In this document: positions 779 to 59,693 of the stretch, piece after piece
How the letters are laid out: each line of letters begins with the position of its first letter
Position numbering within the stretch: position 1 is the first letter of the stretch
From: Forficula auricularia
Lineage: Eukaryota; Arthropoda; Insecta; Dermaptera; Forficulidae
NCBI GenBank assembly: GCA_024734495.1
Contig: JALMQS010000411.1
Location: forward strand, 1,649,725 to 1,713,724
Direction of reading: 5' to 3'
DNA length: 64,000 nucleotides
Program-made: the position numbers and the translations under genes
Notes under the pieces: model-generated
Databases searched by the model: none
Told to the model about the DNA's origin: nothing
What the model saw: the letters and a program-made list of their open reading frames with translations, nothing else

Positions 779-1535
779 GCTGAAGACATAAAGGAATCGA
801 GTTAAAATCAAAAATACCGATTGATTCTCATCTAGTACTTGAGGAATAACCATTCTATATTGGATTTGTGACGTTTCGGTTTTTATTGGTAACCATTGCT
901 GAAGACATAGAGGAATCGAGTTAAAATCAAAAATAGCGATTGATTCTCATCTAGTACTTGAGGAATAACCATTCTATATTGATTTTTGACGTTTCGGTTT
1001 TTATTGGTAACCATTGCTGAAGACATGGAGGAATCGAGTTAAAATCAAAAATAGCGATTGATTCTCATCTAATACTAGAGGAATAACCTTATTGCATTCT
1101 ATTTTTGATGTTTTGACTATTAATGGCAACGTGGAGGAATCGACTTAAAATCAAAAAAGACTAAATTCTTTTATGACAAACAACTCAAACTTGAGTTGGT
1201 TACTAAAAAAGAATTTAGTCTTTTTGATTTTAATTCGATTCCTCCACGTTTTCATTAGAGGTTGCCATTAATAGTCAAAACATCAAAAATGGAATGCAAT
1301 AAGGTTATTCCTCTAGTATTAGATAAGAATCGATTGTTATTTTTGATTTTAAGCCGATACCTTCATGTCTTCAGCAATGGTTACCAATAAAAACCGAAAC
1401 GTCAAAAATCCAATATAGAATGATTATTCTTCAAGTACTAGATGAGAATCAATCGCTATTTTTGATTTTAACTCGATTCCTCTATGTCTTCAGCAATGGT
1501 TACCAATAAAAACCGAAACGTCAAAAATCTAATGT
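779..1535. repeat. Palindrome built of ~119 bp repeats
   Basis: The left half holds tandem copies of a ~119 bp unit starting near 779, 897 and 1016 (each begins TGCTGAAGACAT). The right half (about 1200-1535) is the same material in reverse complement. The turning point is near 1190 at CAACTCAAACTTGAGTTGG, and the inverted arms are roughly 345 bp. The unit contains GAAACGTC on the minus strand, preceded by a GGTT/AACC stem but without a CTGANGA box. The repeat continues past 1920 (ATTCCTCGACTATTAAATAAG), so the element at 1540-1910 was inserted into it. Confidence 0.75.
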
Positions 1536-1603
1536 AAAATTGAAGGAGACAATAAAAGAGTGTGTCTTCTGCTGGAATTATAAATTTTATTTATTTATAA
1601 CGA

Positions 1604-1638
1604 GACTATAGTTTCGAGGGCTTTGCCCTCTTCATCAG
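1604..1638 (-). ncRNA. Hammerhead-ribozyme-like motif, family 2 (intact boxes)
   Basis: Read on the minus strand, box CTGATGA (1632-1638) is followed by one A, a perfect 6-bp stem GAGGGC/GCCCTC closed by AAA, box GAAA (1612-1615), then C-TATA-G and the triplet GTC (1604-1606). C pairs with G to give a one-pair stem III with loop TATA, and GTC is the classical cleavage triplet. Stem I is weaker: GA/TC next to the core, then AUA-type pairs beyond a bulge. This is the motif closest to the hammerhead consensus in the window. Confidence 0.55.
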
Positions 1639-1775
1639 TCTATTGCAATGTGTTCACAGGAATTGATTTATGAATGAAAGTTTTGCATTTTTCATGTGTT
1701 AAGTTAACCTTAACACATGAAAAATGTAAAACTTTCATTCATAGAATTAATTCCTGTGAATACATTGTAATAGAA

Positions 1776-1810
1776 CTGATGAAAGAGGGCAAAGCCTCGA
1801 AACTATAGCC
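1776..1810 (+). ncRNA. Degenerate hammerhead-like motif, opposite arm of family 2 element
   Basis: The right arm repeats the motif on the plus strand: CTGATGA (1776-1782), a stem with one lost base (GAGGGC against GCCTC), GAAAC (1799-1803), TATA, and GCC (1808-1810) where the other arm has GTC. The change at the middle of the cleavage triplet should abolish cleavage, so only the minus-strand arm keeps the consensus. Confidence 0.5.
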
Positions 1811-1983
1811 TCGTTATAAATAAATAAAATTTATAATTCCAGCAAGACACACTCTTTGTGTCTCCTTCAATATATAAAAATTCTGCTACTCTCGGCAAAA
1901 ACTTTCAATTTAATGTAAAATTGTTATTCCTCGACTATTAAATAAGAATAAATATTTTTTTTTGAATTTAAGTCAACATAGAC

Positions 1984-10932: not shown

Positions 10933-11600
10933 TATAACTGGTATCAAAGAAAAGTTTAAATGGAAATGAAAATGGGAAGAAATTAGCGAAATGAACGAAT
11001 ATAACCTGGAGGTATGGCTTACATCGAAATGGCTCATTTAATAAACATATTGTAAAACAAAAGTGACTAAGGCTACAAGGACCATCTTTAAGAAATCCCT
11101 AAATGGAGTGCTTGTAAAAGCTGGGGTAAGTAGATACTTGCACTTGTTTGAAAGCTATTTGTTTTGTTTTTTGTTTTTGTATTGACGTAAAGAAAAAAAA
11201 ATATTTTATTTAATTTTTGGTATATTTTTCGTATATTTAGTAAACTACTATTAATTCAACAAAATAATTAAAAATGTCATATAAAGGAAACACCAAATAT
11301 CAAAGGTAACAATTCTATTTCATTCAACAATGTCAATCATTTCAGCTCTTCGTCAAATCAACAAGTTTTTGTTTGAACTTGTACCTAAATATTATTAAAG
11401 ATATCGGCATTATTCAAGAACCTAAGAGCAAGAAGAATTCAGGAATTATACCAATAATTCCTCCTAAAAAATTTAAGTGAAAATATTCCGGTGACTCTGG
11501 TAACTCCAACCAGTACTTGGCAGACAGCCTCGTAACTATCGATATTTTGAATATGATCGATCTATAAATATCATAATGTTGTCGCAGTTTAAGATATTCA
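10933..11600. other. AT-rich non-coding stretch
   Basis: I see no supported gene or repeat between the LINE fragment and the fold-back elements. Confidence 0.4.
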
Positions 11601-11604
11601 GTTC

Positions 11605-11850
11605 ATAGAAAATATTTTGTTTTTTTCCGAGAGTAGCAGATTTGTTGATTCATAAAGAGGTTGTTCTCTGCTTGATGCAAATAAACATATAAATATATAT
11701 TTAAAAAGCAAAGCCCTCGAAACTATAGTCTTGTTATAAATAAACAAAATTTATAATTCCAGCAGAAGACACACTCTTTTATTGTCTACTTCAATATATA
11801 AAAATTCTGCTACTCTCGGCAAAAGCTTTCAATTTTATATTGATAGCGTT
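11605..11850. mobile_element. Rearranged family 2 fold-back element
   Basis: The left part carries, on the minus strand, the tail CTGCTACTCTCGG followed by the GAGGTTGTTCTCTGCTTGATGC block seen at 31215-31345 and 33770-33840. The right part carries the second half of the family 2 hammerhead-like motif (GCCCTCGAAACTATAGTC, 11704-11721) and the complete downstream segment to CTCGGCAAAAGCTTTCAATT. The first box is missing, so the motif is a half. Two related elements are joined here. Confidence 0.5.
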
Positions 11851-11968
11851 TTTCTTTAGGAGACGGACTGGTATAAATATGTAATTGGATGTTGATGAAG
11901 GCAGTCCACGGTGGTTGTAAAAAATAAGACTATAATGGTTTTATTATTTTACATTTATTTGTTAAACC

Positions 11969-12001
11969 GACGTTTCGGAGATTTATTCTCATCTTCTTCA
12001 G
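11969..12001 (-). ncRNA. Hammerhead-like motif, family 4 left arm
   Basis: On the minus strand box CTGAAGA (11995-12001) and box GAAA (11973-11976) are followed directly by C and GTC (11969-11971). The stem between the boxes has mismatches compared with the right arm (GATGAG against CTCC), so this copy is probably weaker. ACC/GGT next to the core would still form stem I. Confidence 0.4.
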
Positions 12002-12140
12002 GGTAACAAAAAGTCAATGAAAGTAGTTCAAATCATAATTACTTCCTGTCTCCTTTGACAATGCCAAAAAAACATTATAAAATTTTTTCATCTCGAATAG
12101 ATCAATTGCTTTTTTCTATTCGAGATGAAAAAATTTTCTA

Positions 12141-13014
12141 ATGTTTTATTTTTATTTTATTCGATATACGGGAGTTATTCCAGTTACAATATACATTTTT
12201 ATACAATAAATCAACAATTTAACAAAACTAAAATACTAATTTATAGTCTTAATTATTTTTATAGAGAAAAGTTTGCGGAATTTAACATAATGTAATGCAT
12301 TTATTTTTATTATAATTATATTATTTCATTTAAATTGAGTAGGTAAACAATTATTTTTATAGAGAAATTTAACAGAACAAAAGTCACATTAATAGATAGA
12401 TAAATAGTACACAGATAGATACATACAAGTGAAGCTAATATAAAGCATGTAATAATATAATACAATCTATTAGACAATTAATCGTAGTGTGAGCAATATC
12501 TTTTGATATCCCTCACACCACATGAAAAGAAGTCCAATTGTGAGGAGTTTGCCTTTAGCATCACTCTATTCAGCCCTGTATTTTTTGAATAATTAGTATT
12601 ACAAATGGGGATAAAAAAGGTTTCGACAATGCGACTGTAATATTGAGGTACTTTGAAATTAATATATTGGAGAATTTCACAACAATCAATCAGACCATTC
12701 AACAGTTTGCGAAGGAATATCAAGTCATTTTGTAGTCTACGGGATGACAAACTTTGGATATTTAGTTCGGTTCTTAAGAGTCTAGAAGAGGGATAGTTAT
12801 ATGGGGTAAGAGAGTTATTAGTTGATGAGAATTTATATGATATAATTTTTTAAAAATTTATTTTGCACTCTTTCAATTTGGTCAATTTGATGTTGGACAT
12901 GCGGTGACCAAATTAAACTGCAGTATTCCAGCTTGCTTCTTACTAGGAAGTTAAATATGATAGTATAGGTCGAATTTTATGTCTGTGAAAAGATACAACA
13001 TTGCACTTTTTGGC
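12141..13014 (-). pseudogene. LINE ORF2 C-terminal fragment with 3' UTR
   Basis: On the minus strand the start encodes RSKLEYCSLIWSPH, a signature of the region after the palm in CR1/jockey-group LINEs. The frame 12478-12750 then encodes DLIFLRKLLNGLIDCCEILQ and the conserved end of the protein. The 3' untranslated region runs to GTATATCGAATAAAATAAAA. A homologous copy with insertions is at 30545-32550 on the plus strand. Frame breaks separate the two coding parts, so it is a dead fragment lying between the arms of the fold-back element. Confidence 0.75.
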
Positions 13015-13081
13015 AGTTTTTTTGGCATTGTCATAGGAGACAGGAAGTAATTATGATTTGAACTACTTTCATTGACTTTTT

Positions 13082-13128
13082 GTTACCCTGAAGAAGGAGA
13101 GAATAAATCTCCGAAACGTCGGTTTAAC
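13082..13128 (+). ncRNA. Hammerhead-like motif, family 4 right arm
   Basis: Box CTGAAGA (13088-13094) is followed by one A, a 5-bp stem GGAGA/TCTCC (13096-13100 with 13108-13112), box GAAA (13113-13116), C, and GTC (13118-13120). Upstream GTTACC pairs with downstream GGTTTAAC as ACC/GGT and GTT/AAC around a TT bulge, giving a stem I adjacent to the core. Stem III is a single C-G pair with no loop, which could only fold as a dimer. Such minimal stem III versions are known from Penelope-like elements. Confidence 0.45.
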
Positions 13129-13471
13129 AAATAAATGTAAAATAATAAAACCATTATAGTCTTATTTTTTTACAACCACCGTGGACTGCCTTCATCAACA
13201 TCCAATTACATATATTTATATATATATACCAAATATAAAATATATTATTATATTATATTATAGCCTTTATTGGTTCCAAGTTATACATTTCTTAGTATAC
13301 AAGTTTCTATTATTAATTTTATAATTTTATCTACAGTAGTTTACAAAAGTTATTATAATAAATATTTACATCTGCATATACATACATATATATTTTATTT
13401 TAATTATTTTATTTTTTTATCAACTTTTACAATTTAAATTTTAACATTTATAATAAGTACTAACTAGTTGG

Positions 13472-15466
13472 TTAGTTTAACTGTGGAACCAGACCCCTTA
13501 GGGCGAAGGCCTCTCCCAGCCTCTTCCATTCATTTCTGTCACGAGCTATTCTTGACCATGTCATTCCTGTGAAACTCGTTATCTCGTCCGCCCATCTTCT
13601 CGATTGACGTCCTCTTTTTCTTTTTTGGTGGGGGTGCCATTCTGTAATTCTTTTTGTCCATCTGTCCTTCATTCTGCAAATGTGTCCCGCCCATTTCCAT
13701 TTGGATAGTCTGATTGTTTTTAATATATTTTCAGACTTAGATAGTTTATATAGTTTTTCGTTAGATATTCTATCGATTTTTCTTATTTTCATTATACTAC
13801 GCAGCATCGCTCTATGGGTAGTTTCTATTTTCTTTTCTAGTTTGGTTGTTAAAGCCCAAGTTTGGGCTCCGTAGATCATTGTTGGTATTACGCACTTATT
13901 TAGTACTTTTATCTTTGATGTTGAATTGATATTATCATTTTTTAAAATGAATTTTAGTTGCCAAAATTTATTCCAGCTCAAGCTGATTCTTCTCTCAATT
14001 TCTTCCTTTGATCTGTTCTGAAAGCTCATTGTTTGGCCTAGGTATATCGTTTTCTCCTTTAATGGAATGGGAGGGTTGGTTATTTGTGATAAAAGATTCT
14101 CGTTTGTCATAATTATTGATTTTTTTGTATTAATTTCGAGGCCTATCTCTTTGCTTCTAAGCAGTAGCTCTTCATACATTTGAATTAGTTGATCCTTCGT
14201 TGGTGCTATTATAATTATATCATCTGCGAAGCGTAAGTTGTTTAGATAATTGCCGTTTATATTTAAACCTTTTTTATCCCAATCAAGCTCCTTAAACATA
14301 CTTTCCAAGACGCAATTAAAAAGAAGGGGTGAGAGGGGATCTCCCTGTCTCACTCCCCTCTTCACCGGGAAGAATGGACCAGGATTATCCATTAGAATTC
14401 TTGCTTGGTTTTCTTTATACATATTTTCTATTATTTGTATATAGCTTCGGTTTATTCCCTGTTTCTTTAGTGCCTCAAATATAGATTTATGACACAGGGA
14501 ATCGAAGGCCTTAGAGAAGTCAATGAATGCCAGATAGATTTGTATTTGATGTTCGTTTGCCTTTTCGATCAGTTGGTTTACCACATGCAGATGGTCAATT
14601 GTGGAGAATCCCGATCTGAACCCTGCCTGGTCTATCGGCTGATTAAAATCTATGGTTTGTCTAATTCTGTTTTGGATTATTTTTGAAAATATTTTTCCTA
14701 CGTTGCTTGATATAGTCAGTGGTCTATAATTATTTATATCCTTCGAATTTCCCTTCTTTAACATTATCATTATATTAGCTTTCTTCCACTGGTTAGGTAT
14801 TATTTTTGTTTCGAAAATGTTGTTAAATATTTTCATTAATGGTTTTTTAATATCATTTTTAAGCAATTTTAATGTTTCATTTCTTAAGCCGTCTAAGCCT
14901 GGTGTTTTTCCTTTTTTTAAGTTTTTCAAAACTTGTTCTATTTCACTTTCAATTATTTTTGGTATTTCTTCCACCTCACTTATATTTTCCTGTTTCACTA
15001 TTTCATGTTGAGCTTTATTTTCTTTATATAGATTTCTATAGAAATCAGTAGCTATTTTTGCTATGTTAATACGATTATATTCATTTAAGTTTTTAGTATT
15101 TTTCATACTTGTTATTAAAGAATTTCCAGAAGATAGCGATTTTTTAATTTCTTTTATTGAATTATGTGGTACTATTAAAGAGTCAATTATTTTATTATTA
15201 TAAGTTTTCAAATCATTTTTAATGTTATATTTCACCAGTTTGCAAATTATATTATGTTCTATTTTACTTTTTATATCGATTCTCTTTTTTTTTAGTTGAT
15301 TCCTTTTCAAAATGAGCATTTTGGTTTTTTCTGATAATTTTGAAGGTTTATCATTTTTTCTTGAGAGTTTGTTCTGAATTTGTTTAATACTTTTTTCCAT
15401 TTCATCATATTGTTTTTGTATTTCGAATTTGTTTGCCATATCAATGTCTTTAATTTGATTAATCAT
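13472..15466 (-). CDS. LINE ORF2, reverse transcriptase part
   Basis: The product is 664 residues. The first ~130 are lysine-rich linker. Reverse-transcriptase motifs follow: GKTPGLDGLRNE (~185), YRPLTISS (~247), QAGFRSGFSTIDHL (~280), AFIDFSKAFDSL (~313, first catalytic Asp), RGVRQGDPLSPLLF (~370), and FADDIIII (~413, catalytic Asp pair). The C-terminus (GRQSRRWADEITSFTGMTW and ARDRNEWKRLGEAF) is typical of RTE-type elements. In frame, the coding continues upstream of the first ATG through NPNWNKNLFIDTQQDK, overlapping the endonuclease end, so the present start is not the real one. All catalytic residues are kept. The only damage seen is the upstream frameshift. Confidence 0.88.
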   Translation of the reverse strand: MINQIKDIDMANKFEIQKQYDEMEKSIKQIQNKLSRKNDKPSKLSEKTKMLILKRNQLKKKRIDIKSKIEHNIICKLVKYNIKNDLKTYNNKIIDSLIVPHNSIKEIKKSLSSGNSLITSMKNTKNLNEYNRINIAKIATDFYRNLYKENKAQHEIVKQENISEVEEIPKIIESEIEQVLKNLKKGKTPGLDGLRNETLKLLKNDIKKPLMKIFNNIFETKIIPNQWKKANIMIMLKKGNSKDINNYRPLTISSNVGKIFSKIIQNRIRQTIDFNQPIDQAGFRSGFSTIDHLHVVNQLIEKANEHQIQIYLAFIDFSKAFDSLCHKSIFEALKKQGINRSYIQIIENMYKENQARILMDNPGPFFPVKRGVRQGDPLSPLLFNCVLESMFKELDWDKKGLNINGNYLNNLRFADDIIIIAPTKDQLIQMYEELLLRSKEIGLEINTKKSIIMTNENLLSQITNPPIPLKEKTIYLGQTMSFQNRSKEEIERRISLSWNKFWQLKFILKNDNINSTSKIKVLNKCVIPTMIYGAQTWALTTKLEKKIETTHRAMLRSIMKIRKIDRISNEKLYKLSKSENILKTIRLSKWKWAGHICRMKDRWTKRITEWHPHQKRKRGRQSRRWADEITSFTGMTWSRIARDRNEWKRLGEAFALRGLVPQLN

Positions 15467-15501
15467 TTCCAGAGTTTCCTCATCCTTATCCTGTTGCGTA
15501 T

Positions 15502-16590
15502 CTATAAATAAGTTTTTGTTCCAATTAGGATTAGGTCTTTTTCGAGGGAAAGAGAAGATATTTCTATTTTTAATAATCGATGGTCTGTTTCATATGGGAA
15601 TTTGTTGAGAACTTCGAATTTATTTATCAAATTTATGTGTGGAGTTAGAATATAGTCTATTTGCGTTTTGTATTTGACATTTGGTGCAGCCCAAGTCCAT
15701 TTTTTCCCTGCTCGTTTTTTATAGAAGGAATTTACAATTTTAAGATTGTTTTCCTGGCAAAAATGTATCATTCTGGTGCCTCTTTCATTCCTTTTTCCAA
15801 ATCTGTATGGTCCCATAATTTTATTTTCATCTATTAAACCTTCTCCTATTTGACTATTGAAATCTCCCATTATTATTAGTTTATTTTTGTAGTTTGGAGG
15901 GTTTAAATTTATTGTTTCTTTTAGTAGTGAGTAAAAATCTTCGACGTTTTTCTCTTCAGAGTCATTTGTGGGTGCGTAGACCTGGATTATTGTAATTTCT
16001 CCATCTTTTTTGTAGGCAATTTTTAGTAGTCCTATCCTTTCAGAAATACCTCTAAATTCTGTAATGTTTTTTTCCCATGTGTTTTTTATTAGGAAGCCTA
16101 TCCCTTTATGTCCCTGTGTTTCGCCCATATAGCAAAAAAGATATCCGCTTTTTCTTCTAATTATTTTCTCTCCCAATCTTCTCACCTCACTCACTCCTAG
16201 TATATCTATATCGCTCGTGTTCATAGCATTTTCCAATTCTTCAAGTCTTTCTTCGTCTTTCAGTGTTCTTACATTTAAGGTTGCTATATTTAGTTTGTTA
16301 TTATTGTTTTTATTCTTCTCTTTTTTCCTTTTATGATTTTTATCTTCATTGATTATAGTTTTTTTGACTTCATCTAGCCTTTTGTTGTTTTTATTATTGC
16401 TCTTTGACGTCAAATTAGTTTCCACTCTTTTATTTTTGTTTTCGACATATATAGTTTTAACATTGTTATCTGGGAGGTTTTGGTCGTAATAGCCCGAGGT
16501 GACCAGTCTTCCTGGGCTATGGGTTGGTTCGAGGTTGGTTTTTTGAATCTGGTATTTTTTGTATATCGCCTGAGTTCCACAGTCTATTTC
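15502..16590 (-). CDS. LINE ORF2, endonuclease part
   Basis: The frame is open from the TAG of ORF1 to a stop at 15502. The recognisable protein of about 307 residues begins near 16425 at a GTG codon, and there is no ATG before the catalytic region. Motifs of the AP-type endonuclease follow in order: IATLNVRTL (metal/active site), DILGVSEVRR (catalytic Glu), IIQVYAPTND, IIMGDFNSQIGEG (Asp/Asn), KWTWAAPNVKYKTQIDYIL and ETDHRLLKIE (catalytic His). The enzyme would nick target DNA to prime reverse transcription. The C-terminus is reached in a different frame from the reverse transcriptase, with the switch near the T5 run at 15538-15542. The two were therefore one polyprotein. Confidence 0.85.
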   Translation of the reverse strand, partial: EIDCGTQAIYKKYQIQKTNLEPTHSPGRLVTSGYYDQNLPDNNVKTIYVENKNKRVETNLTSKSNNKNNKRLDEVKKTIINEDKNHKRKKEKNKNNNNKLNIATLNVRTLKDEERLEELENAMNTSDIDILGVSEVRRLGEKIIRRKSGYLFCYMGETQGHKGIGFLIKNTWEKNITEFRGISERIGLLKIAYKKDGEITIIQVYAPTNDSEEKNVEDFYSLLKETINLNPPNYKNKLIIMGDFNSQIGEGLIDENKIMGPYRFGKRNERGTRMIHFCQENNLKIVNSFYKKRAGKKWTWAAPNVKYKTQIDYILTPHINLINKFEVLNKFPYETDHRLLKIEISSLSLEKDLILIGTKTYL

Positions 16591-17334
16591 CTATTCTTGG
16601 TCTACCGAATTCGACAGGTTTCCCATAGATCCGCTTTTTCCATTTAGGAATTCAGTCATTTTCATTCTTTCATTTATGAATTGTTTGTTATTATTGGTTT
16701 TCAATTTTTTCCCTTTAACAGTTTGTGGTGTTGTTACTGGATCTATTGGGGAGTTGTCATCTCTTCTTCTTTTGATTGAATCCTTTATTATTAGTTGGTC
16801 GTGTTTTATAATGGCATATTTTCCACTTTCCCTGGCCTTGATTAATTGAGGTATTAGTTTTCTACGGGTTTCTAGCTCTTCTTTTGTAAAATCCTCAGTT
16901 ATGTATTGCTGAGAGCCGTTTAAGCTCCTTTTATTCCTCAAGATTTTGGTTTTTATTCTCACTGTAGTTAGAGCTATTAGAATTGGCCTTATTTTACTCT
17001 GTTGAGGTCTGCCAAGCCTTTTGATTTCGTCTACATGACTTATATCGAATTCCTTAAAGACTTTTTTATTTATCAATTCTATAACATTATTTTCCAGCGA
17101 ATCTATATCTTTTTCCATTTCCGGCAAACCGAACAGAATTATGTTCTTCAGCCTCTGCTGTTTTTGCATTGTGTCTACTTTCACTTCTACACTCTCGATT
17201 CTATTATCGTGTTTCATTAGTATATTCTTAGTTTCTTCCAATTTTTTAGAAATATGGGAGATTTCAGATCTTATTTCATCCTTTATCTCTTCCTTCCAAG
17301 CTTTTAAAATCTCTATCAATTCTTCTTTATTCAT
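16591..17334 (-). CDS. LINE ORF1: coiled-coil nucleic-acid-binding protein
   Basis: The product is 247 residues and starts with ATG. Residues about 5-65 are a charged heptad-like coiled coil (KEELIEILKAWKEEIKDEIR onward), suggesting multimerisation. Residues about 65-150 resemble the RRM-like core of L1-type ORF1 proteins (KNIILFGLPEMEKD, then DISHVDEIKRLGR). About 150-200 matches the basic C-terminal part (TKEELETRRKLIPQLIKARE). The last 50 residues are lysine-rich. Such proteins bind LINE RNA in the ribonucleoprotein. It ends at a single TAG (16591-16593), after which the same frame stays open into the endonuclease. No internal break is seen. Confidence 0.8.
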   Translation of the reverse strand: MNKEELIEILKAWKEEIKDEIRSEISHISKKLEETKNILMKHDNRIESVEVKVDTMQKQQRLKNIILFGLPEMEKDIDSLENNVIELINKKVFKEFDISHVDEIKRLGRPQQSKIRPILIALTTVRIKTKILRNKRSLNGSQQYITEDFTKEELETRRKLIPQLIKARESGKYAIIKHDQLIIKDSIKRRRDDNSPIDPVTTPQTVKGKKLKTNNNKQFINERMKMTEFLNGKSGSMGNLSNSVDQE

Positions 17335-17460
17335 TTTTGCAATATAGATTATAATATATTGATATATTTACTCACTTTTCTATTTCTTCGACTCTGAACT
17401 CGGAGCTAATCCCATGCGATGTGCACTGTTCAAAGGTTCGCACTCAACTCCCAAATATAT

Positions 17461-17575
17461 ACATTTACTTAATTTATTTGTTAGAGACTATAGTTTAGAA
17501 GGTTTGACCTTCATCATCAATCTTTTTTTAATTAGAAACGAAGCGAAACTATAGTCTCCCAACAATTAAATTATA
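17461..17575. mobile_element. Small fold-back remnant with family 2-like motif
   Basis: On the minus strand there is TTGATGATGAAGG, a stem AAGGT/ACCTT, TAAACTATAGTC and AACAAATAAATTAAG. The plus strand carries GCGAAACTATAGTCTCCC at 17537-17554. Both are decayed versions of the GAAACTATAGTC half of the family 2 motif, arranged as an inverted pair. Both core boxes are mutated. Confidence 0.45.
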
Positions 17576-18959
17576 TATATAAAACTCAACCCGGTCTTCC
17601 AATGTTAATAAGTTCCTCCTGTTGTACTCAATGTATATAATGTATTAATTTTCCCTAAAAAGAAACTAACTCGCCTTATACAGTAAAACTTTATTGGTAC
17701 TAACCCTAAATTTTCTTCTTTTTTAAAAGTAAATATAAAAATACAAGTTAAACATAAACTCATAATAAACCTAGCTTGATTAGGAGATAAATACTCTTCT
17801 TGTTTGTCATGGTTCATTTGGTGTTGAACAACTTTGTTTTCTAATAAAAGTTTTATGAATCTTTAGGGATAGAAAACTCCTTTGGATAATTAGACAGTTT
17901 TCTCTACTCTCTTGTTTTCAAAATTAAACTTTTTCTCTCTATGCATATATGTATATAGTATATTTATATGCATGTTTTTTGAATGAATTATATAAAAGAA
18001 AATAACAAGAACAAAATAACCACGAAGCGATAAAAAGATTTATTTTCATTTTATACGATACATAGGTAGATAGACAGTCGAATTTGGAATTTCCACTGAT
18101 TGGGTCTCTAGTAGTCGAGGCTAGCTGAATATATACCTATATGTATATAAAGAGGAAAATAAAATATCTAAAAAAACTCAATAAATGAAAATATTTTTAT
18201 ATTGGTTGTATTGTATTTTTATTTGTATCTGTTTCTCATAAAATGGTAGGAATTTCATTTCATTTTTACAAAAAAAAAAAGTTGATTGAAATTCAACTAC
18301 CTATATATAACCTATAGAGTGGAAGAGATAGAGGTGGAAATAAAGTGAAAGGAAATACTGAGAAATGGGGTTAAAAGGTAAATAATAATAGAATTGTTTA
18401 ATCGATTAAAAATTGTGGAATGTAAAATAAATAATTATAATTATTTTTGAATTATATAGATTGAATATGAAAATTTTTGTACAATTATATAAAAGGAAAA
18501 AATAATTTTAAAACGGTCCATGGCCTGAAAGTTAGCCGGAAACATATCTAACCAAAAAGGATTTCTTCAAAAATACAAGTTTTTTAATTAAATAGATTGA
18601 ATTAAAGAATAAGAAAATCAATGTATACATGACAATTTCTAATACCCCGAAAGAATATTCACTTTGGATTAAATGTTCGAATTGCCACCAAATGTAAAAT
18701 TTATTAAAAAAAGGCTGAACTTCAAAAATGTAGTCTCGACTATTTGGAAGTAACGTTAAAACTTTTGAACAGCCGGTACGCTTCTTCGTAAATTTTAAAG
18801 ATTTGTAACTTTATTTGTCAAGGAACAGTTTGAGCTATAAAGCTGAAACTTTGCACCTGACTAATAATCCAAACATTTAAACCAAATTTCAGCTCATTGG
18901 CTGCAAGCATACAAGCTAAGTCTCGTTTTAAATATTGGATTTTTTTCTGAATTTTAGTA
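17576..18959. other. AT-rich non-coding stretch
   Basis: No gene is supported. The part around 18780-18960 reads like an old repeat (CAAACATTTAAACCAAATTT), but I cannot classify it. Confidence 0.4.
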
Positions 18960-30684: not shown

Positions 30685-31959
30685 CAGTGTTCCGCAAAGT
30701 GTGTGCCGTGGCACACTGTTGTACCTTGGTCATTAGTTGTTGTGCCGGTGAAAAATGTCAAATTTTATGAAGATAATGCACCTACATATAGCTGAGAACA
30801 GTTATGCGAGCAGCAAGAGATGAGAGCAGCCTTATCAACGATTGCTCCAAATTTTGATCGCCTGTGCTCAGTTAAGCAGGCTCACATTTCTCATTAAACA
30901 TCTTTTCATATTATATTGATTTTAAGGTAGTTGTTACACCATATGGGTTTTGTTAGAATTTTTTTTTGAAATATAGAGAGAATATCATTTAAATACTTCT
31001 GCATCGATTGGTGGCAAAACGAAATTTATCGAACAGTATACATAGTTCCGGAGATATTAAATTCCAAAGATAGAGTTTTTCAGACACTTATAGATTGCAC
31101 TATACAGGATATCAGAAAGTTTACATACATATTTAATTATAATTAAGAAACTCTTCTTACCATTGTTATAAAAAACTAAACCAACATTAAACAATAAATA
31201 ATACACAAAAAGAGAAACAAAGAGGTTGTCCTCTGCTTGATGCAAATAAACATACACACATATATATCGAGATGATATATCTGTATATATATTATTTATT
31301 TGTTTGAGACTGTTTGCATCAAGCAGAGGACAACCTCTTTGTTTCTCTTTGTGAATCAACAACTCTGCTACTTTCGGCAAAACAAAAACTTTTCAATTAA
31401 ATAAATAATACATTTTTGAAAATTTCAATTCATAGTTACAACACAGTTTCTGAGATAATAATAAATAATAATGAATAATGTATAATGAAAAATTTACACT
31501 AAAAACAAGCTGGCAACAACGCATTTATTTAACCTAAAAAGTGGGTTAACTTTAGTAATTTTTTGACGTTTTTTGTCGCTCTTCAGCCATTGTCGCAACA
31601 GCTTTTAATCGTTGATTAAGAACTTTTTGTTTTATAAATCGATCTTTATAATGTATTTTATCTGTCATTTCTATGATAAAAATATTCAAGCTCGGACAAT
31701 GTTGGCAGATTTGTCAAACGAGCACTGGATTGGCTAGTAGTGGTACATAAACAGCAAACAGTTTTGGGCTTATGAATTATGAATCCTTATTGTCTGTTCT
31801 ATATACTCTAGCATTAACTTTTTGTCTAGTATTGTCGCGAAACAACTACCTTAGTAATAAATAAATATTAAATAAACATTGGTTTTTTTCTTTGGCTTTC
31901 CTTTAAAATTTGTTTATTTGGTAGGTGTACCTTGAACACAAAAAGTTTGCGGAACACTG
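30685..31959. mobile_element. hAT non-autonomous element, copy 1
   Basis: The ends are CAGTGTTCCGCAAAGTGTG and TTTGCGGAACACTG. The 8-bp flanks CCGTAGAC (30677-30684) and CCATAGAC (31960-31967) are a target-site duplication with one change, confirmed by the uninterrupted LINE sequence at 12725-12745. The terminal ~250 bp on the left and ~290 bp on the right match 51959-52603. The extra length comes from further insertions, including 31206-31399. No transposase frame is recognised. Confidence 0.85.
31206..31399. mobile_element. Fold-back retroposon with 13-bp duplication
   Basis: Flanks AATAAATAATACA (31193-31205) and the identical string (31400-31412) bound a short inverted repeat. Its arms are AACAAAGAGGTTGTCCTCTG...TGATGCAAA and the reverse complement, separated by an AT-rich centre. 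The tail CTACTTTCGGCAAAACAAAA is shared with the family 2 elements. The arm block recurs at 11665-11690 and 33810-33835. The motif region is reduced to TTTGAGACTG. It sits inside the hAT at 30685-31959. Confidence 0.75.
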
Positions 31960-32255: not shown

Positions 32256-32443
32256 AATAATAAAACTTGAGCAAGATGCGAGGTAGGTTTAAAAAAAGAA
32301 ATAAAACAAAATTGAGTTTTTGAATTCGATATATTTCGGGAGTGAGCCCATCATGTGAAACCTACCTCGCATCTTGCTCAAGTTTTATTATTATATTAAA
32401 ATGTTTCACCTAGAACCAACACCTAACTCCTTAAAAAGTTATT
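32256..32443. mobile_element. Fold-back retroposon with 13-bp duplication and visible empty site
   Basis: The direct repeat TATAAATTAGTTT (32243-32255 and 32444-32456) flanks 188 bp. The arms AATAATAAAACTTGAGCAAG...GAGGTAGGTTT and AAACCTACCTC...CTTGCTCAAG are about 35 bp. The loop carries, on the minus strand, GATGGGCTCACTCCCGAAAT, a family 3 hammerhead-like remnant with a mutated first box. The paralogous LINE at 12222-12250 has a single copy of the target, so this is an insertion. Confidence 0.8.
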
Positions 32444-32639
32444 TATAAATTAGTTTTTTAGTTTTGTTAATTTATTGTATAAAAATGTAAATCTGTTACT
32501 GGGATAACTCCCCGTATATCGAATAAAATAAAAATAAAATAAAAAATTAAATTAAATAAGTCACAACAAACGTCACTCATTTTAGTCATTGTTTTAATAA
32601 TTTCAAAAAATAATAATGTGGAATAAGATTATTATTTTA

Positions 32640-32900
32640 TTTAAAGTTGAAATTTTATCTAACACACACAAAATTAATTATAACTAAGGATTAATTGAAC
32701 ACAAAAAACAAATACTACAATAGTACTACGACGTTTCGATCGGCTTATTCTGCGATCGTTCTAAGTATGAGTACCTACATGATAACGATAACAGAATAAT
32801 CCGGTCGAAACGTCATAGTTATATTGTAGTATTTGTTGTTTGTGTTCAAAAATAGTTATAATTAATTATGTGTGATTTAAAGAAAATTTCAACTTTCAAT
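32640..32900. mobile_element. Fold-back element
   Basis: The arms TTAAAGTTGAAATTTTATCT...and their reverse complement are about 120 bp each, turning near 32775. Both arms carry GAAACGTC in outward orientation (minus at 32741-32748, plus at 32810-32817), with a GATCG/CGATC stem before it in the minus copy. Neither has a CTGANGA box. It is likely a relative of the hammerhead-bearing families that has lost the first box. Confidence 0.6.
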
Positions 32901-33234
32901 AAATTTAATTACAAAAATACAAACTACTTACATATCTAATAAAGATTATTATTATTATTATTTATTTGGTCTGGATAGCGCAACTCATTTGTCTCTTAGC
33001 AAATTTATTACAATTACATACAATATATTTATATCGTACAATAAAATATTCATCATATTTTGATTAAAAGAGGATTATTAATCGTAATATTTCTTTTGGT
33101 ATTTAATTAAATGTTACACCTTTTATTTGTAAACTTTTTTTGTTTAAAAAAATATATTTAATGATATTATCTGATGCTGTTGTTTTTTTGGTCAATATAT
33201 CGAGTCCGTTAAGGTATTATAGTATTTAATTAAA

Positions 33235-33700: not shown

Positions 33701-33839
33701 GGGTGTCCACTGATTGATATGAATAAACAATACCTATATATTTGATTCAAAAGATTTTGTTTTGCCTAGAATAGCAAAGTTGTTGATTCATAAAGAGAAA
33801 TCTATGAAGTTGTCCTCTGCTTGATGCAAACAAACATAT

Positions 33840-34620
33840 GCATATTTATATGTTGCAGTAAAAAACTGTTTTTAGTAAGAACGGGTTCTTACAAAATATT
33901 TAAAACCCGTTTCACTAAATATCTTTGTGGCAACTAAAATTTACTGATGTTGGTTTTTTTTTTTATAATGATATTGATACAAGAAGAAGTTGCACTAAGA
34001 ACGTACAACCTCTGAAGTCCGTGGTGGACCCTTGAATCGTGAAGATAAGGGGAGATTTAGGGATTGGGTAGCAGTCAAAGGTATCTGTGGATGCCGGTCT
34101 TGAAAGATTGAAGATTATAAGTACAGAGGCTTTATTACTAAAGAGACCGCGGATGTTTGTATAATGGAGGGTTAGCTTGGATATGATAGGGGGTGGGTGT
34201 GGATTATTTGAGGTGATAATCAGATGTAATAGAATAGAAAGAATAGGAACCGGAATCACAAGTTAGACAAAGAAAATTCATTTTGGTTCAAAGCTCTAGA
34301 ATCTTTATTTATGATATTCCGCTTCATTTTGGGTGTTTATTTTCAAAAATATTTATTTAAACGAATTTATTAATATCAAAAATTAGAAGCGAAGTTGTAG
34401 AGGATCTAATTTTTCACATTTTTCGTTTAAATATATTTGAAAATAAACACCCAAAATGAAGCGGAAAGTCAAAATTGAAGATTCTAGACCTTTGAACCAA
34501 ACTCAACCAACATTAGTAAATTCTAGTTGCCACAAAGGTATTCAGTGAAACGCGTTTTATGTTAACTAGAACCCGTTCTTACTAAAAAACGGGTTTTTAC
34601 TGCAACATATAAATATATAT
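33840..34620. mobile_element. Fold-back element carrying an internally deleted LINE
   Basis: The ends TATGTTGCAGTAAAAAAC and GGGTTTTTACTGCAACATA are inverted, with arms continuing through GTAAGAACGGGTTCT and TTGTGGCAACTA...TTTACTGATGTTGG. The centre holds a second inverted repeat (34278-34510, with CATTTTGGGTGTTTATTTTC) and, inside the left arm, the LINE derivative at 33958-34260. A related copy without that insertion is at 51625-51880. Confidence 0.65.
33958..34260 (-). pseudogene. Internally deleted LINE: start of endonuclease fused to 3' end
   Basis: On the minus strand the frame starts in LINE 5' sequence and encodes KLTLHYTNIRGLFSNKAS, the N-terminal strand of a CR1/jockey-type endonuclease. 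It then jumps to the ORF2 C-terminal and 3' untranslated sequence (the segment giving STDTFDCYPIPKSPL and the TTCACGATTCAAGGGTCC tail) and ends in an A-run. Nearly the whole of ORF2 is missing with both ends kept, which makes it a short non-autonomous derivative. Compare 56520-56640. Confidence 0.65.
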
Positions 34621-34637
34621 CTCATTTATTTGTTTGA

Positions 34638-34672
34638 GACTATAGTTTCGAAGACTTGACCTTCATTATCAG
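34638..34672 (-). ncRNA. Hammerhead-like motif, family 2, first box mutated
   Basis: On the minus strand the order is CTGATAA (34666-34672, G to A in the box), a stem GAAGG/TCTTC, GAAA (34646-34649), C-TATA-GTC (34638-34640). A second, more decayed copy in the opposite direction begins CTGATGA at 34830 and ends CTATAGTC at 34864, with GAAA changed to GTAA. The pair forms another inverted arrangement (34625-34880). Confidence 0.45.
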
Positions 34673-35560
34673 TCTTTTTAATTAGAAATATTTTATCTAT
34701 TATTTCTCGTTGGTTCAAAGACTCGTTTGTGTGGCTAGGTTGTTATAACAACAAAATGAATTTTTCTATATCAAATCGTATAATTGGACCCATAAGAAAT
34801 AACAGATAAAATACTTATAATTAAAAAGACTGATGATGAAAGTAAAATCTTGGTAACTATAGTCTCAAACAAAATATATACATATTATTTCATATTTGGT
34901 ATATTTATGACTATATGTGCTTATTTGCATCAAACAGAGGACAACCTCATTGATTTCTCTTTATATACTTATATAGGCGACGTGGGTTTTCATCAAAATT
35001 TCCCCACAATTAAAAAATTTAAAAATGATTGAAATGTTACAAAAATACATTGTTGTAAAATGGACATGGCTCTGAGAGTGTTCACTCGATGCCCAAATTG
35101 TAATAATAAATATATAAGTAATTTTAAATTTGGTAAGTAAACAATTATGTTCATCATAGCTATATAGTTGCTTTATATTTCATTTTTAAATCAACTATTT
35201 TTAATAATTTTCATTGAAAAGGAGAGAATTTCTCCCGAAACGTTTGGATTTTTAATGAACGTTTTGACATTGCTTTTTTGAAACAATTGTAATTATTGAA
35301 TATGAAAAACAAACAATAAATTATATACCTATATATCATTTATTTGTTTGAGACTATAGTTTCGCAGATTCACGGATTAATATGACATAGAAGGGACAAA
35401 GTGAAAGTACTTTTATAATTTTGAATTAGAACTTCTCAAAGTGTGAAAATTTAATACATTCACATTATCAATTAATGATATTTGTATAAATGCAAGTAAA
35501 ATAAGAAAATGATAGAAAATATTTGTTTCCCTAATTTTTAATCATTTAATTGTGTTTCGA

Positions 35561-39539: not shown

Positions 39540-40235
39540 GTTTATTTATCCTAACAATAAAAAAATAATCTTTTCTTCGTTCCCTAAATTTGAAATAAAT
39601 AAAAATGTCAAAAGGTGAAGCTAAAAAGCCATCATATCGCTCCCTAGTTAGTGTAGTTCTACAAGAGAGGACTCTTGTTTAGTAGCTTAACTTGACGTTT
39701 CTGATGGAAATTTCTACTCATACTTACATCAAGCAATCAAGTCTCAAAACTTGTAAATTTATTTATTATATTGTTTTGATATTAATGTATGAATTATTTA
39801 GATTTAATATATAATACAAAGCATAACTGAGGCTTCTACTTGTAGAAATGGAAATCTAGTTAGAGTTCGTGAAAAAATTCGAATTTGATTTTTCGTAATT
39901 CTTTAACTTTCAAGGTTCTCTAAGTTCAAAAATTAAATTTAAATAATTATAAGTGTGTGTGTTTGTGCTACCAATTGTACCCATAATTATAAAGCTTAAA
40001 AATTTCAAAATTATTTTTTAAATAGGTACTTTATTCCAATAGATTTTAATTTTTTTTTACTTTGTTCAATTGATAAAAATATATTTGTAGAATCTAAACA
40101 AAATCTGGATTAAAATACTCAAAAAAGGTGGTACAATTAAAAAAAAAAAAAAATTGGATTACATATATTAACAAATGGTCTTGTGTAAAACAATTTATTA
40201 AAATTCTTCCAGAACTTAAGTGACTTGATTTAAAT
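39540..40235. other. AT-rich non-coding stretch
   Basis: I see no supported gene here. It ends at the left terminus of the fold-back element. Confidence 0.4.
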
Positions 40236-40318
40236 TTTTTGTTAAATTGAAGGGTTGTTTTTGTCACAAATATAATAAAACAATAATTTCACTAATTATT
40301 TGAATTATTTAATTGATA

Positions 40319-40363
40319 AACTATACAGTTTCGGTCACCACTGGTTGACCATCCTCAGTAGTT
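40319..40363 (-). ncRNA. Hammerhead-like motif, family 1 copy K
   Basis: On the minus strand the order is AACTA (40359-40363), CTGAGGA (40352-40358), stem GGTC/GACC, GAAA (40329-40332), C-T-GTA, then TAGTT (40319-40323), pairing with AACTA. Only the stem II loop differs from the copy at 450-494 (AACC for GACC in the loop). All proposed paired positions are unchanged. Confidence 0.5.
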
Positions 40364-40859
40364 CTAAAATTAAAATTAAACATTTTATTTACATTTTTTT
40401 CTTTTTATAGAGAAATATATAACACAATAAATATACAATATTTTGAAATCATACATACATCTCGTTCAAAAACCGGAATTTGTCATTTCACATGAAACAT
40501 TCATTCCCAAATCTTCAATACAGACACAATACACAATTCATTACATTCAACTGTATATAGCAACAATTTATAAAAACATTTCTCACTGAACCAGAATCTA
40601 TTTTGAATTGATGATTACATTAAATATTCTTTTCAATTTTATTTTTTCCCTAATTATCAATTAATTAAAAAACCCATTATAAATAATCTATTCCAGAAAT
40701 ACATTATAAGTTAATTTATTCTTTATTTTTTATTTTTTATTAATGAAATATCAATATATACATCTCCTTATTACTTTTTCTTATAAACTTAATACCTGTT
40801 CAATCAATACATTAAACCAAATCAACACTTTCACAACAATGACACAATGATAATTTTAG

Positions 40860-40904
40860 AACTACTGAGGATGGTCAACCAGTCGTGACCGAAACTGTAT
40901 AGTT
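40860..40904 (+). ncRNA. Hammerhead-like motif, family 1 copy L
   Basis: AACTA (40860-40864), CTGAGGA (40865-40871), stem GGTC/GACC, GAAA (40891-40894), C-T-GTA (40897-40899) and TAGTT (40900-40904). Two loop bases differ from copy A, and the stems and boxes are identical. Confidence 0.5.
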
Positions 40905-40999
40905 TATCAATTGAATAATTCAAATAATTAGTGAAATTATTGTTTTATTATATTTGTGACAAAAACAACCCTTCAATTTAACAATAAAACAATTTAATC

Positions 41000-42380
41000 A
41001 TTTTAATAAAAGCTTCATTACCAAGGTTAAAAGAAACACAAATTTAAATTTTTAAAATAGAGTCTTTTTATAATATTTGAAAAAAGTGTCGTTTTGAAGT
41101 AGCACTTTTGTCTTCTAGCTTACAAATGTCTCTAATTACAAGGACCTTCGAACTACCTAGGCTCGACTCACCATTACTCTACTGTAAAGATTATACAAGA
41201 TCTAATAATTTGGACTAAAATATAACTATGATAAATTGTTTTTACATTTGTTAATGGAAATTTATCCCTTAATTTTGTATTTCTAATAATATTCAAAATT
41301 CGAATTAAGGATACTGGCAATCTTGGTAACATTCGTGGTGGTGGCTTGAAAATGGTTTCGATTTTTTTTATCTGCTGGCTTAAGACATAGTACTAAAGCT
41401 GAGAAGAGCTGAGAGATTGGAATTCAAGCAAGTTTGTTTTTACTGCTTTGTTCTCTGCTCATATATGTTTTAGGCTGAAAACATAGTAAAGTGGAGAGAA
41501 AAGAAGTGAACAAAGCGGTGAAAACAAACAGTACTTTATTATAAACGAGTTGAACATTGAATTTTATTAAAAAAAAATTTGACACTATCTAATATACTTT
41601 CATCATAAAGGCTCTTCTCCCAACACTATCTTCATGGATGAAGCGGATGCGCCGTAAAAGCAATTACAAGTGAATTGGATTTAATATATAAAGATAAATC
41701 CAATTTTCTTTTCATTTTTTACTTATTTAATATTAACATTTACATCATCTTATTTTTCGAAATTTTCATAAGAAAAGTTTGTTTTCTTAGTAATTAAAAA
41801 AATAAATAAACAAATAAATAAAATCAAAAACAAAGAATTGTTCTTACTGTTAAGTTGTTGTTTTAAAACCTGACACTCACTACCACCAGTCCACCAGCAT
41901 TCCAATAAAGTATTTACATTTCAAAAGAATTCAAATAAAAAAGTAGAAGACAGAGAAAAAGAAAAGATGTAAACTTTTATAAATTAACAATTTACCAATT
42001 TACTAAAGTATATATTTATATTTTATTGTACTTTAGTGTATATAGCTATATAAGATATATTACTTAATATTTTTGTTCTTTCTCCTCTTACTTTTCGATA
42101 TATATATATTTTTAATTTAACTTAAACTTTTACAAAAGGGCAGATTGTTCGAGAGTTTTGGGGGCGGACAGAAATGGTGGTCCGAAAAGAGTATGGGGTG
42201 GAGGTTGTTTTATACTATTCTGAAAGTCAAATCTTTCTGTACATCAAAGCTTATTTCTAGACTATCTATGTGTGTGTTATTAGTTAATTTATTTGTTAAA
42301 AGTTTCAAAGGGAGGCTGAACCTATTTTCTATGATAAAAAGTAATTAATAATCGACATGCTCTATTTAAATGATAATATT
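41000..42380. other. AT-rich non-coding stretch
   Basis: No supported gene seen in this interval. Confidence 0.4.
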
Positions 42381-50204: not shown

Positions 50205-50298
50205 GTCTATATATTGAAGGCTTCGCTTTCCCCAAAAAATAAACGAATTTGGAAAAAGTACTTACCACCCTTGATAATTATAACTATTTCTAATTATT

Positions 50299-50949
50299 CC
50301 CGTATAACACAGAGACCAAAATAAAACCCAAATGCAACTTTCTTGATTGGTCGAATTATAGTCATTATATAGTTTTATTTAGGTTGAATTACGGTTTCAA
50401 AACGGTAGTTATGTCTCGTTTTTTTCAGTTTTGCAACTGTGTTGTATTATCGATAAATTATAGTCGCAAAGATTATCAAGTAACCGTTACAAAAAAGGTT
50501 GTCGCCAACATTTTTGTCCCCGATTTGCAACTATTTATTTATAATTTTATATTTCTTTGATTTGATTAATATAATGAATAATTACACAATTCTTTAATAA
50601 AGAACAATAATCAACATTATATATATATATATTGTATATTATTAAAGAATTGTGTAATTATTCATTATATTAATCAAATCAAAGAAATATAAAATTATAA
50701 ATAAACAGTTGCAAATCGGTGACAAAAATGTTGGCGACAACCTTTTTGTAACGGTTGTTTTATAATCCTTGCGACTACCTATAGTATAATTTAACGATAA
50801 TACAACACAGTTGCAAAACGGGAAAAAAACGAGACATAACTACCGTTTTGAAACCGTAATTCAACCTAACTAAAACTATATAATGACTATAATTCAACCA
50901 ATCAAAAAAGTTGCATTTGGGTTTTATTTTGGTCTCTGTGCTATACGGG
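50299..50949. repeat. Large near-perfect palindrome (~650 bp)
   Basis: Two arms of about 320 bp, from CCCGTATAACACAGAGACC to GGTCTCTGTGCTATACGGG, differ at only a few positions and indels. They meet at an AT dinucleotide centre near 50625. Blocks such as GTTGTCGCCAACATTTTTGT and its complement are conserved. No hammerhead boxes, open frame or clear target-site duplication were recognised. It ends about 150 bp upstream of the Ig exon. It could be a very young fold-back transposon or a locally duplicated inversion. Confidence 0.85.
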
Positions 50950-51958: not shown

Positions 51959-52603
51959 CAGTTTTCCGCAAAATGTGTGCCGCGGCACACTGGTGTACCG
52001 TAGTCATTAGTTGGTGTGCCGCGGAAAAATGTCAAGTTTTGGGAAGATAATGAACCTAGACATAGCTGAGAGTTATGCGAGCAGCAAGAGATGAGAGCAG
52101 CCTTATCAACGATTGCTCCAAATTTTGATCGCCTGTGCTCAATTAAGCATGCTCACATTTCTCATTAAACATCTTTTCACATTATATTGATACTAATAAT
52201 AAATAAATATTAAGGTAGTTTAATAATTAAGTGGATATTGATGAGGCATGCCAAAAAAGAAGATAATTTATACTATCTTTTTATTTTTATTCAAAAACCG
52301 ACGTTTCGGAGGCTATTCCCTCCTTCTTCAGGGTTTCTATGATAAAAATATTAAATTGGACAATGTTGGTAGATTTGTCAAACAAGTACGGGATTGGCTA
52401 CTAGTAGTGGTATAAACAGCTAAAACTTTTGGGCTTATGAATTATGAATCCTTTTTGTCTGTACTATATACTCTAGCAGTAACTTTTGCTAGTATTGTCG
52501 CAAAATAACTAAATTAAATAAATATTGTTTTTTCTTTGGTGTACCTCTAAAATTTCTTGATTTGGTAGGTATACCTTGAACACAAAAAGTTTGCGGAACA
52601 CTG
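51959..52603. mobile_element. hAT non-autonomous element, copy 2
   Basis: The ends CAGTTTTCCGCAAAATGTG and TTTGCGGAACACTG and the perfect 8-bp duplication GTGTATAT (51951-51958 and 52604-52611) define it. Long stretches match 30685-30930 and 31665-31959. Between them sits a family 4 arm (52218-52340) with a hammerhead-like motif, absent from copy 1 at this position. Confidence 0.9.
52295..52336 (-). ncRNA. Hammerhead-like motif, family 4 single arm
   Basis: On the minus strand AAACC (52332-52336), CTGAAGA (52325-52331), one A, stem GGAGG/CCTCC, GAAA (52304-52307), C, GTC (52300-52302) and GGTTT (52295-52299). AAACC pairs fully with GGTTT, and stem II differs from the 13088 copy at both strands (GGAGG/CCTCC against GGAGA/TCTCC), so pairing is kept. 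Stem III is a bare C-G pair, as in the other family 4 copies. Confidence 0.5.
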
Positions 52604-59532: not shown

Positions 59533-59693
59533 TTGAAGGAGACAATAAAAAAGGATTTCTGCTGGAATTATAAATTTTATTTATTTATAACGTTATAAAT
59601 AAATAAAATTTATAATTCCAGCAGAAGACACCTCTTTTATTGTCTCCTTCAATTTATAAAAATTCTGCTACTCTCGGCAAAAACTTTCAATTT
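59533..59693. mobile_element. Fold-back retroposon, family 2, centre deleted
   Basis: A 12-15 bp duplication with core GAAATTTATATT (59521-59532 and 59694-59705) flanks the start TTGAAGGAGACAATAAAA and the tail CTCTCGGCAAAAACTTTCAA. The arms meet at TTTATAACGTTATAAA, so the hammerhead-like part present at 1540-1910 is lost. Both termini equal those of 1540-1910. Confidence 0.8.

Follow-up and report, generated by a model that had tools for sequence, protein, structure and literature searches.

Fold-back insertions of Penelope-like elements in Forficula auricularia point to double priming on RNA

A 64,000-nt stretch of the Forficula auricularia genome (GenBank assembly GCA_024734495.1, contig JALMQS010000411.1, positions 1,649,725 to 1,713,724 of the forward strand; the window) contains six fold-back elements with a tail on one side only, flanked by target-site duplications (TSDs) of 12-15 nt (A1, A2, B1, D1, E1 and F1; Table 1). 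The analysis of A1, located at 1540-1910, and of its genomic relatives placed family A among the Penelope-like elements (PLEs). We consider it likely that such PLE insertions, which lack an open reading frame (ORF), are made by double priming and that their arm ends record the 5' ends of RNA. With somewhat less assurance, we lean towards reading the fold-backs as direct prints of coordinated PLE double priming, in which, besides promoter-started RNA, RNA cleaved by a hammerhead ribozyme does serve as a template in vivo, though in a minority of cases. The class of element is known; this reading of its mechanism is new to us, and no papers treating PLE integration as twin priming were found, as judged by titles. 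The insertions bear on the route of PLE integration, the reason for the inverted repeats and the role of the conserved hammerhead. The thousands of tail copies, the sampled ones being mostly simple fold-backs, give base-level access to where copying starts, how far the cut is staggered, where the template has its 5' end and how the arms are joined.

Element A1 is an inverted dimer with a direct TSD and a defined start and tail, as an earlier reading made from the letters alone (the sequence-only reading) had described it. The arms pair with each other across 1543-1867 with 90.7% identity, and a tail of 40 nt is present on the right side only. The element is flanked by a 13-nt direct repeat, TAATGTAAAATTG. 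The edges of this duplication are ambiguous, in that TTG also forms the element's own first bases; a core of 10 nt had been given earlier. In a symmetric search of 20,000 random site pairs, the probability of a repeat of at least 13 nt was 0.0004, and of at least 10 nt, 0.004. The surroundings of A1 are an array of 118/119-nt tandem repeats, and the flanks joined by a single copy of the repeat matched another array unit without a gap (137/154 identical). The 13-nt repeat is therefore an insertion footprint, with a unit of the surrounding array as the empty site.

Family A is a PLE on the evidence of its genomic copies, because an ORF with reverse transcriptase (RT) and GIY-YIG domains precedes the pseudo-long terminal repeat (pseudo-LTR), the hammerhead and the tail. 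At L153:493-2022(-), a frame of 510 amino acids contains RVT_1 (E 3.1e-13) and GIY-YIG (E 3e-5), each scoring above its Pfam cut-off, and more of the ORF, its N-terminal part, is present in a second frame that has no Pfam match. Downstream of the 510-amino-acid frame, after ~80 nt, comes the arm sequence also present in A1, and then the hammerhead and tail. The sense sequence farther upstream in L059 encodes a GIY-YIG domain, and L061 is 95.5% identical to L059 over 806 nt. With 7998 candidates scored, 176 proteins matched the 510-amino-acid frame at E<=1e-10; among the matches listed, most have an RT domain and some GIY-YIG, the best is 64% identical, and those named by organism are from insects. 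The remaining hallmarks of PLEs were also present: inverted or direct pseudo-LTRs with an optional tail of ~30-40 bp (the six window fold-backs and most of the genomic insertions described below), target duplications in AT-rich targets, and, as a motif only, a pseudo-LTR hammerhead of the minimal type I kind in which helix III is reduced. For families B, D, E and F, the assignment to the PLEs is by architecture only.

The genome (1.06 Gb, 845 contigs) was searched for relatives of A1. There were 4617 occurrences of the exact 28-nt tail of family A and none of the reversed pattern, and approximately 40 near-full-length A1-like copies were found at 92-96% identity (40 scored of 4264 candidates). 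A first sample consisted of 39 fetched A1-like copies and is biased toward A1-like hinges. The second sample consisted of 100 listed tail sites (contigs C3, 5; C4, 58; C5, 37) with 900 nt upstream, chosen regardless of structure. End repeats in the first sample were at least 10 nt long in 38/39 copies and at least 12 nt in 36/39; three of these copies represent one duplicated insertion, the repeat of L045 runs into element sequence and that of L052 is a TA run. In the second sample, with two duplicates removed, the TSD was at least 12 nt in 57/85 fold-backs and at least 11 nt in 63/85, with a mode of 12 nt. The G+C content of the duplications of at least 11 nt was 135/801, versus 29.8% for the window. 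Four sequence patterns gave no match to relatives in viral contigs. A 19-mer had five matches in a set of genome contigs, where the BLAST agreement was only 19-23 bases (L005 was inspected), and these were judged to be chance.

Duplications are thus present in most of the sampled copies, and their mode is not 2, 3 or 8 nt. The duplications of A1 and its relatives, described earlier as long and variable, were found to be long, but not strongly variable, at 12-15 nt in the window. The inverted arms are a feature that a cut-and-paste miniature inverted-repeat transposable element (MITE) or a Foldback DNA transposon would share; such elements have a short fixed TSD and symmetric termini, whereas here the 12-nt mode, the asymmetric tail, the variable hinges and the RT/GIY-YIG ORF of family A make this origin exceedingly improbable. 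The sequence-only reading had likewise set A1 apart from cut-and-paste MITEs and had proposed insertion by an RNA route, which agrees with the RT/GIY-YIG element, the tail, the ~12-nt duplications and arm ends that fall at features of the RNA.

The two arms of a fold-back begin at different sites. Among the 100 tail-bearing insertions of the second sample, 86 had an antisense left arm starting near an inner site. In a second count, 70/100 non-tail arms started no more than 5 nt from the inner site; the arm included the tail in 2 and started between the sites in 7, and the remaining 21 were truncated, short or chance matches. The inner and outer sites are ~40 nt apart, and the tail is the difference between the arms. 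Given a tail, one arm therefore starts from the outer site and the other nearly always from the inner site. According to the available text of a study on the Anolis carolinensis PLE protein (PAc, Poseidon), this protein cleaves and extends both target strands, and the RNA has two adjacent internal RT start sites with the genomic tail between them (PMC11167929). The Anolis system resembles the present one in its RT and GIY-YIG ORF, a hammerhead near the pseudo-LTR/ORF junction, start sites about one tail length apart and an AT-rich target. In the present elements, by contrast, each arm has its own start site, and some ends, a minority, lie on the hammerhead cut. A term search of the Anolis study found no discussion of inverted products.

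The extents of the arms were unequal in both directions. The tail-less arm was longer by at least 5 nt in 30/87 fold-backs, the tail arm was longer in 30/87, and the two were within 4 nt of each other in 27/87. With extents so unequal, in many fold-backs neither arm can have arisen simply by copying the other, and two primings, one on each side of the cut, are favoured. Reverse transcription with template switching onto the opposite strand had been suggested by the sequence-only reading; its RNA route stands, whereas switching was probably not the principal route: 30/87 tail-less arms reach farther 5' than their would-be template, although hinge deletions may explain some of these. Self-priming would mean that a cDNA with the tail, or else an antisense RNA, folds back and copies itself into the second arm; self-priming on an antisense template has been proposed in the available text on the Adineta vaga Penelope (PMC3846280). 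The palindromic junctions, the head-to-head arms, the tail arm that is equal or longer in 57/87 and the correlation between arm ends all accord with it, and an antisense RNA template trimmed at one end would still fit. We nevertheless consider self-priming unlikely. Hinge deletions aside, the 30/87 longer tail-less arms contain 5' sequence that is missing from the tail arm, and the tail is nearly always missing from the other arm. Furthermore, the loop in B1 and F1 is antisense sequence that forms part of the tail-less arm, and the same applies to D1, where the assignment depends on a degraded hammerhead-like motif.

The interior of the arms was compared in 38 copies. At three columns that mark subfamilies, the arms agreed in 15/15 minor-allele cases, with 0 discordant; since the subfamily alleles agree, both arms seem to derive from RNA of one source. 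The mean distance between the arms of one copy was 0.025, versus 0.029-0.032 between copies, which does not separate the models, and only 3/38 arms, on the left as on the right, had their own partner as the nearest neighbour. No column in the 38 copies separated left from right arms. Hinge sequence and arm lengths vary among insertions, and because the hinges differ, each insertion seems to have formed its own hairpin. The copying of the fold-back as a fixed unit by PLE enzymes, whether MITE-like or as a short interspersed element with a hairpin, would be compatible with the thousands of tails, with the near-full-length A1-like copies and with recurrent hinges, such as -71/-71 in five insertions. 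It is rendered quite unlikely by the variation in hinges and arm lengths and by the want of a left/right-diagnostic column; the arms of a fixed unit would also drift apart, yet the subfamily alleles agree at three columns.

Several observations weigh against two primings on RNA of one source. Hinge deletions that followed insertion might have made the arms unequal. The two arm ends within insertions were correlated (Spearman 0.55), which fits a single RNA 5' end and also copying. Column 13 was concordant between the arms in 8 copies and discordant in 4, and at ten interior columns (85-95 and 153-160) changes were almost confined to one arm (column 153, for example, in both arms of 0 copies and in one arm of 9). 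These one-arm-only changes are read as later mutation or misalignment. Overlaps at the junctions were modest, reaching at least 2 nt at 13/27 spacer-free junctions, versus 19% in an incompletely matched simulation. A TSD of at least 11 nt was absent in 22/85 fold-backs. The second sample covers insertions with an exact tail on one arm in three contigs, and tail-less fold-backs fall outside it. Finally, in the available text of the Anolis study, start sites were not different between strands (PMC11167929).

On balance, we infer the following series of events. The PLE protein would cut the target with a stagger of ~12 nt, and reverse transcription of RNA from one source would be primed at both 3' ends, the outer start giving the tail arm and the inner start the tail-less arm. 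Each cDNA would extend until fall-off or until the 5' end of the RNA. The two antisense cDNAs would then face each other, and the joining of their far ends would give the hairpin. The recurrent RNA 5' ends would be the predicted hammerhead cut (+1), in a minority, and a probable transcription start 71 nt upstream, within the pseudo-LTR. In LINE-1 twin priming, two target ends prime on one RNA and an inverted segment results; the second priming is occasional and its positions are varied. Here, in contrast, the second priming would be the usual form in the sample and would use a fixed second site.

A descriptor of the minimal hammerhead was built from CUGANGA, stem II, GAAAC, a reduced helix III and GUH, which we take to be its consensus. 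Its wider form had 9 matches in the window, versus a mean of 0.18 and a maximum of 2 in 100 simulated windows, and the strict form had 4, versus 0.033 per simulated window. The motif thus exceeds chance, in keeping with the ribozyme-like arms that had been proposed for A1. The predicted cut in family A is GAAACUAUAGUC^UCGUUAU. Stem I of family A comprises only 2 contiguous base pairs, which counts against the mechanism proposed above. No Rfam hammerhead model matched the window (at the gathering cut-off and at E up to 10) or two hammerhead stretches; this fits reduced forms, and the motif is regarded as a predicted ribozyme. Rfam microRNA matches were long hairpins with scores under the gathering cut-off and were rejected as chance. 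Minimal hammerheads in PLE pseudo-LTRs are described in the available text of two reviews (PMC7761336, PMC6155905).

The hammerhead motif in the arms could also suggest a metazoan retrozyme, which inserts by reverse transcription of a small circular RNA generated by type I hammerheads. According to the available text on non-LTR metazoan retrozymes, these are likewise small, non-coding and AT-rich with type I hammerheads, and TSDs of >4 bp are noted for them (PMC7229834). Extra sense-strand matches, several of them short, were present upstream of the insertion in 16/60 loci (L053-L112) and may be neighbouring or direct copies. Retrozymes are described in that text as direct tandem repeats of 150-450 bp with canonical hammerheads, and the word 'inverted' is absent from its main text, whereas the elements here are inverted dimers with a minimal helix III and a link to a PLE ORF. 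A retrozyme origin is therefore very unlikely, and the inverted joins do not favour a circular RNA template, which the sequence-only reading had also suggested.

The ends of the arms were then considered as footprints of the RNA. At +1 of the predicted hammerhead cut, 10/183 arm ends were counted, versus a mean of 0.75 at neighbouring positions (Poisson 8e-9). The +1 ends were inspected in nine insertions (right arms of L056, L067, L076, L078, L092 and L139; left arms of L076, L142, L150 and L151), the end of L151 having been missed in the count of ten through trimming. In L076 both arms stop at +1 with a blunt CGATCG hinge, and L092 and L139 resemble it by eye except for one substitution or a nested stretch. 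As the partner arm stops elsewhere in several of these insertions, the +1 peak is not merely a palindrome effect. The largest peak comprised 18 ends at -71, 71 nt upstream of the cut, at the A of TTTC-ATTC. This context fits the arthropod initiator and suggests that -71 is a transcription start.

The footprint reading is weakened on several counts. The Poisson value ignores the clustering of ends elsewhere, and L098, counted among the ten +1 ends, is a mutated longer arm and thus an artefact. Five insertions share a symmetric -71 hinge, which could result from fold-back copying or from the GAATTC palindrome. Right arms extended 5' of the cut in 62/96, so most templates were uncut there; at least two of these, L065 and L073, may alternatively be read as +1 ends with overlap. 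Insertion hence does not require cleavage, which agrees with the Anolis in vitro result, and a minority of templates was probably cut by the ribozyme. If upheld in a larger set, the +1 excess would be in vivo evidence for the use of hammerhead-cut RNA. The proposal of a hinge at the hammerhead cut in every copy was dropped, as A1, the left arm of D1, E1 and F1 read through it and the left arm of B1 overshoots by 3-4 nt. A small excess at -94 (4 right and 4 left ends) was traced to a subfamily that differs from the reference, and it became smaller when two references were used. Left-arm ends were also raised at -9 to -13, directly 3' of hammerhead stem II (9/87), as would be seen if the fold made the reverse transcriptase pause.

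The sequence-only reading knew of no described class with the form of A1. Such a class exists: the available text on the Adineta vaga Penelope describes head-to-head pseudo-LTRs, a one-sided tail (31 bp there), palindromic inverted junctions and TSDs, all of which are found here (PMC3846280). In Adineta one inverted pseudo-LTR is 37 bp shorter, the TSDs are 8, 9 and 10 bp, and solo and captured forms occur; the word 'hammerhead' is absent from the main text of that study (PMC3846280). The present elements differ in that the ORF-less fold-back is the prevailing form in the sample (antisense arm in 86/100), the TSD mode is 12 nt, tails number in the thousands and ends occur at the hammerhead cut. 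Across PLEs, TSDs span a wider range than 8-10 bp.

For the window, nearby inverted repeats were tested for a one-sided direct repeat; 36 pairs were listed, and a repeat of at least 12 nt was present in four (B1, D1, E1 and F1). Random site pairs reached 12 nt in 0.2% under this asymmetric search. A1 and A2 are broken up by indels in the scan and were taken from the earlier finding. The tails are 38-58 nt long, with 3/6 exceeding 40 nt. The element read earlier at 59533-59693 (A2) does have the start and tail of A1 and its own repeat of 15 nt. The tail of A1 had also been assigned to 31206-31399 (B1); only the tail core is common to the two (17/18 bases, by eye), and B1, with a 13-nt repeat, represents a separate family. 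The further fold-back noted at 32256-32443 (D1) belongs to a third family and also has a 13-nt repeat. E1 and F1 follow the same plan and were absent from the earlier description. In F1 an alternative 12-nt repeat is present at 40186/40985 and was not chosen as the TSD.

Table 1. Coordinates of the fold-back elements and their parts within the window.
Feature	Positions	Strand	Description	Basis
A1 TSD, left copy	1530-1542	+	TAATGTAAAATTG	Direct repeat and empty site
A1 left arm	1540-1708	-	Antisense family-A pseudo-LTR copy from the inner start site, without tail	
A1 left-arm minimal hammerhead	1604-1638	-	Predicted cut 1604/1603 on the minus strand	Descriptor match; no Rfam match
A1 right arm	1709-1870	+	Sense pseudo-LTR copy; hammerhead core 1776-1802 deviates from the motif	
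A1 tail	1871-1910	+	Ends at the outer start site; includes the 28-mer with 4617 genomic occurrences	
A1 TSD, right copy	1911-1923	+		Direct repeat
A2	59533-59690	+	Family-A fold-back; hinge 59591/59592 beside the predicted hammerhead cut; tail 59653-59690; TSD 59518-59532/59691-59705	
B1	31206-31399	+	Family-B fold-back; tail 31354-31399; TSD 31193-31205/31400-31412; left arm exceeds right	
D1	32256-32443	+	Third-family fold-back; tail 32393-32443; TSD 32243-32255/32444-32456; hammerhead-like remnant in left arm, 2 core mismatches	
E1	32637-32941	+	Fold-back; tail 32903-32941; TSD 32625-32636/32942-32953; hammerhead-like motif, 2 core mismatches	
F1	40240-41041	+	Fold-back; 509-nt antisense left arm, short sense right arm and 58-nt tail; TSD 40228-40239/41042-41053	
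F1 hammerhead	40324-40358	-		
F1 hammerhead	40865-40899	+		

Additional copies of these families were identified in the window. A sense family-F copy (F2) is present at 28-595, with a hammerhead at 455-489 and 85% identity to the left arm of F1. A chimera at 11597-11838 joins a family-B left arm with its tail to a family-A right arm with its tail; it has no clear target duplication by eye and may represent double priming on two RNAs, or a deletion. At 33745-34970, a family-B fold-back in reverse orientation is split by an inverted-repeat element (~33850-34605).

The region around A1 contains, at 684-1540 and 1984-2238, an inverted array of the 118/119-nt repeats (~777-1130 versus 1221-1540), together with a 14-15-nt array and a 71-nt array. 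The 118/119-nt units contain CCGAAACGTC, perhaps a minimal-hammerhead relic (by eye). Hammerhead-bearing arms at 17447-17600 lie just upstream of a minus-strand element of the long interspersed element (LINE) type (13472-17367; RT and endonuclease domains, two ORFs) and may be a chance neighbour or a ribozyme in the LINE leader. A different minimal hammerhead type (GAAACGUC) was identified at 11919-13170 and 52300-52331; at 11919-13170 it lies within 98% complementary arms around an ORF that has no Pfam match and is LINE-like by eye. Nested palindromes at 50299-50949, with a 9-nt direct repeat at 50285 and 50960, are probably an unrelated DNA transposon.
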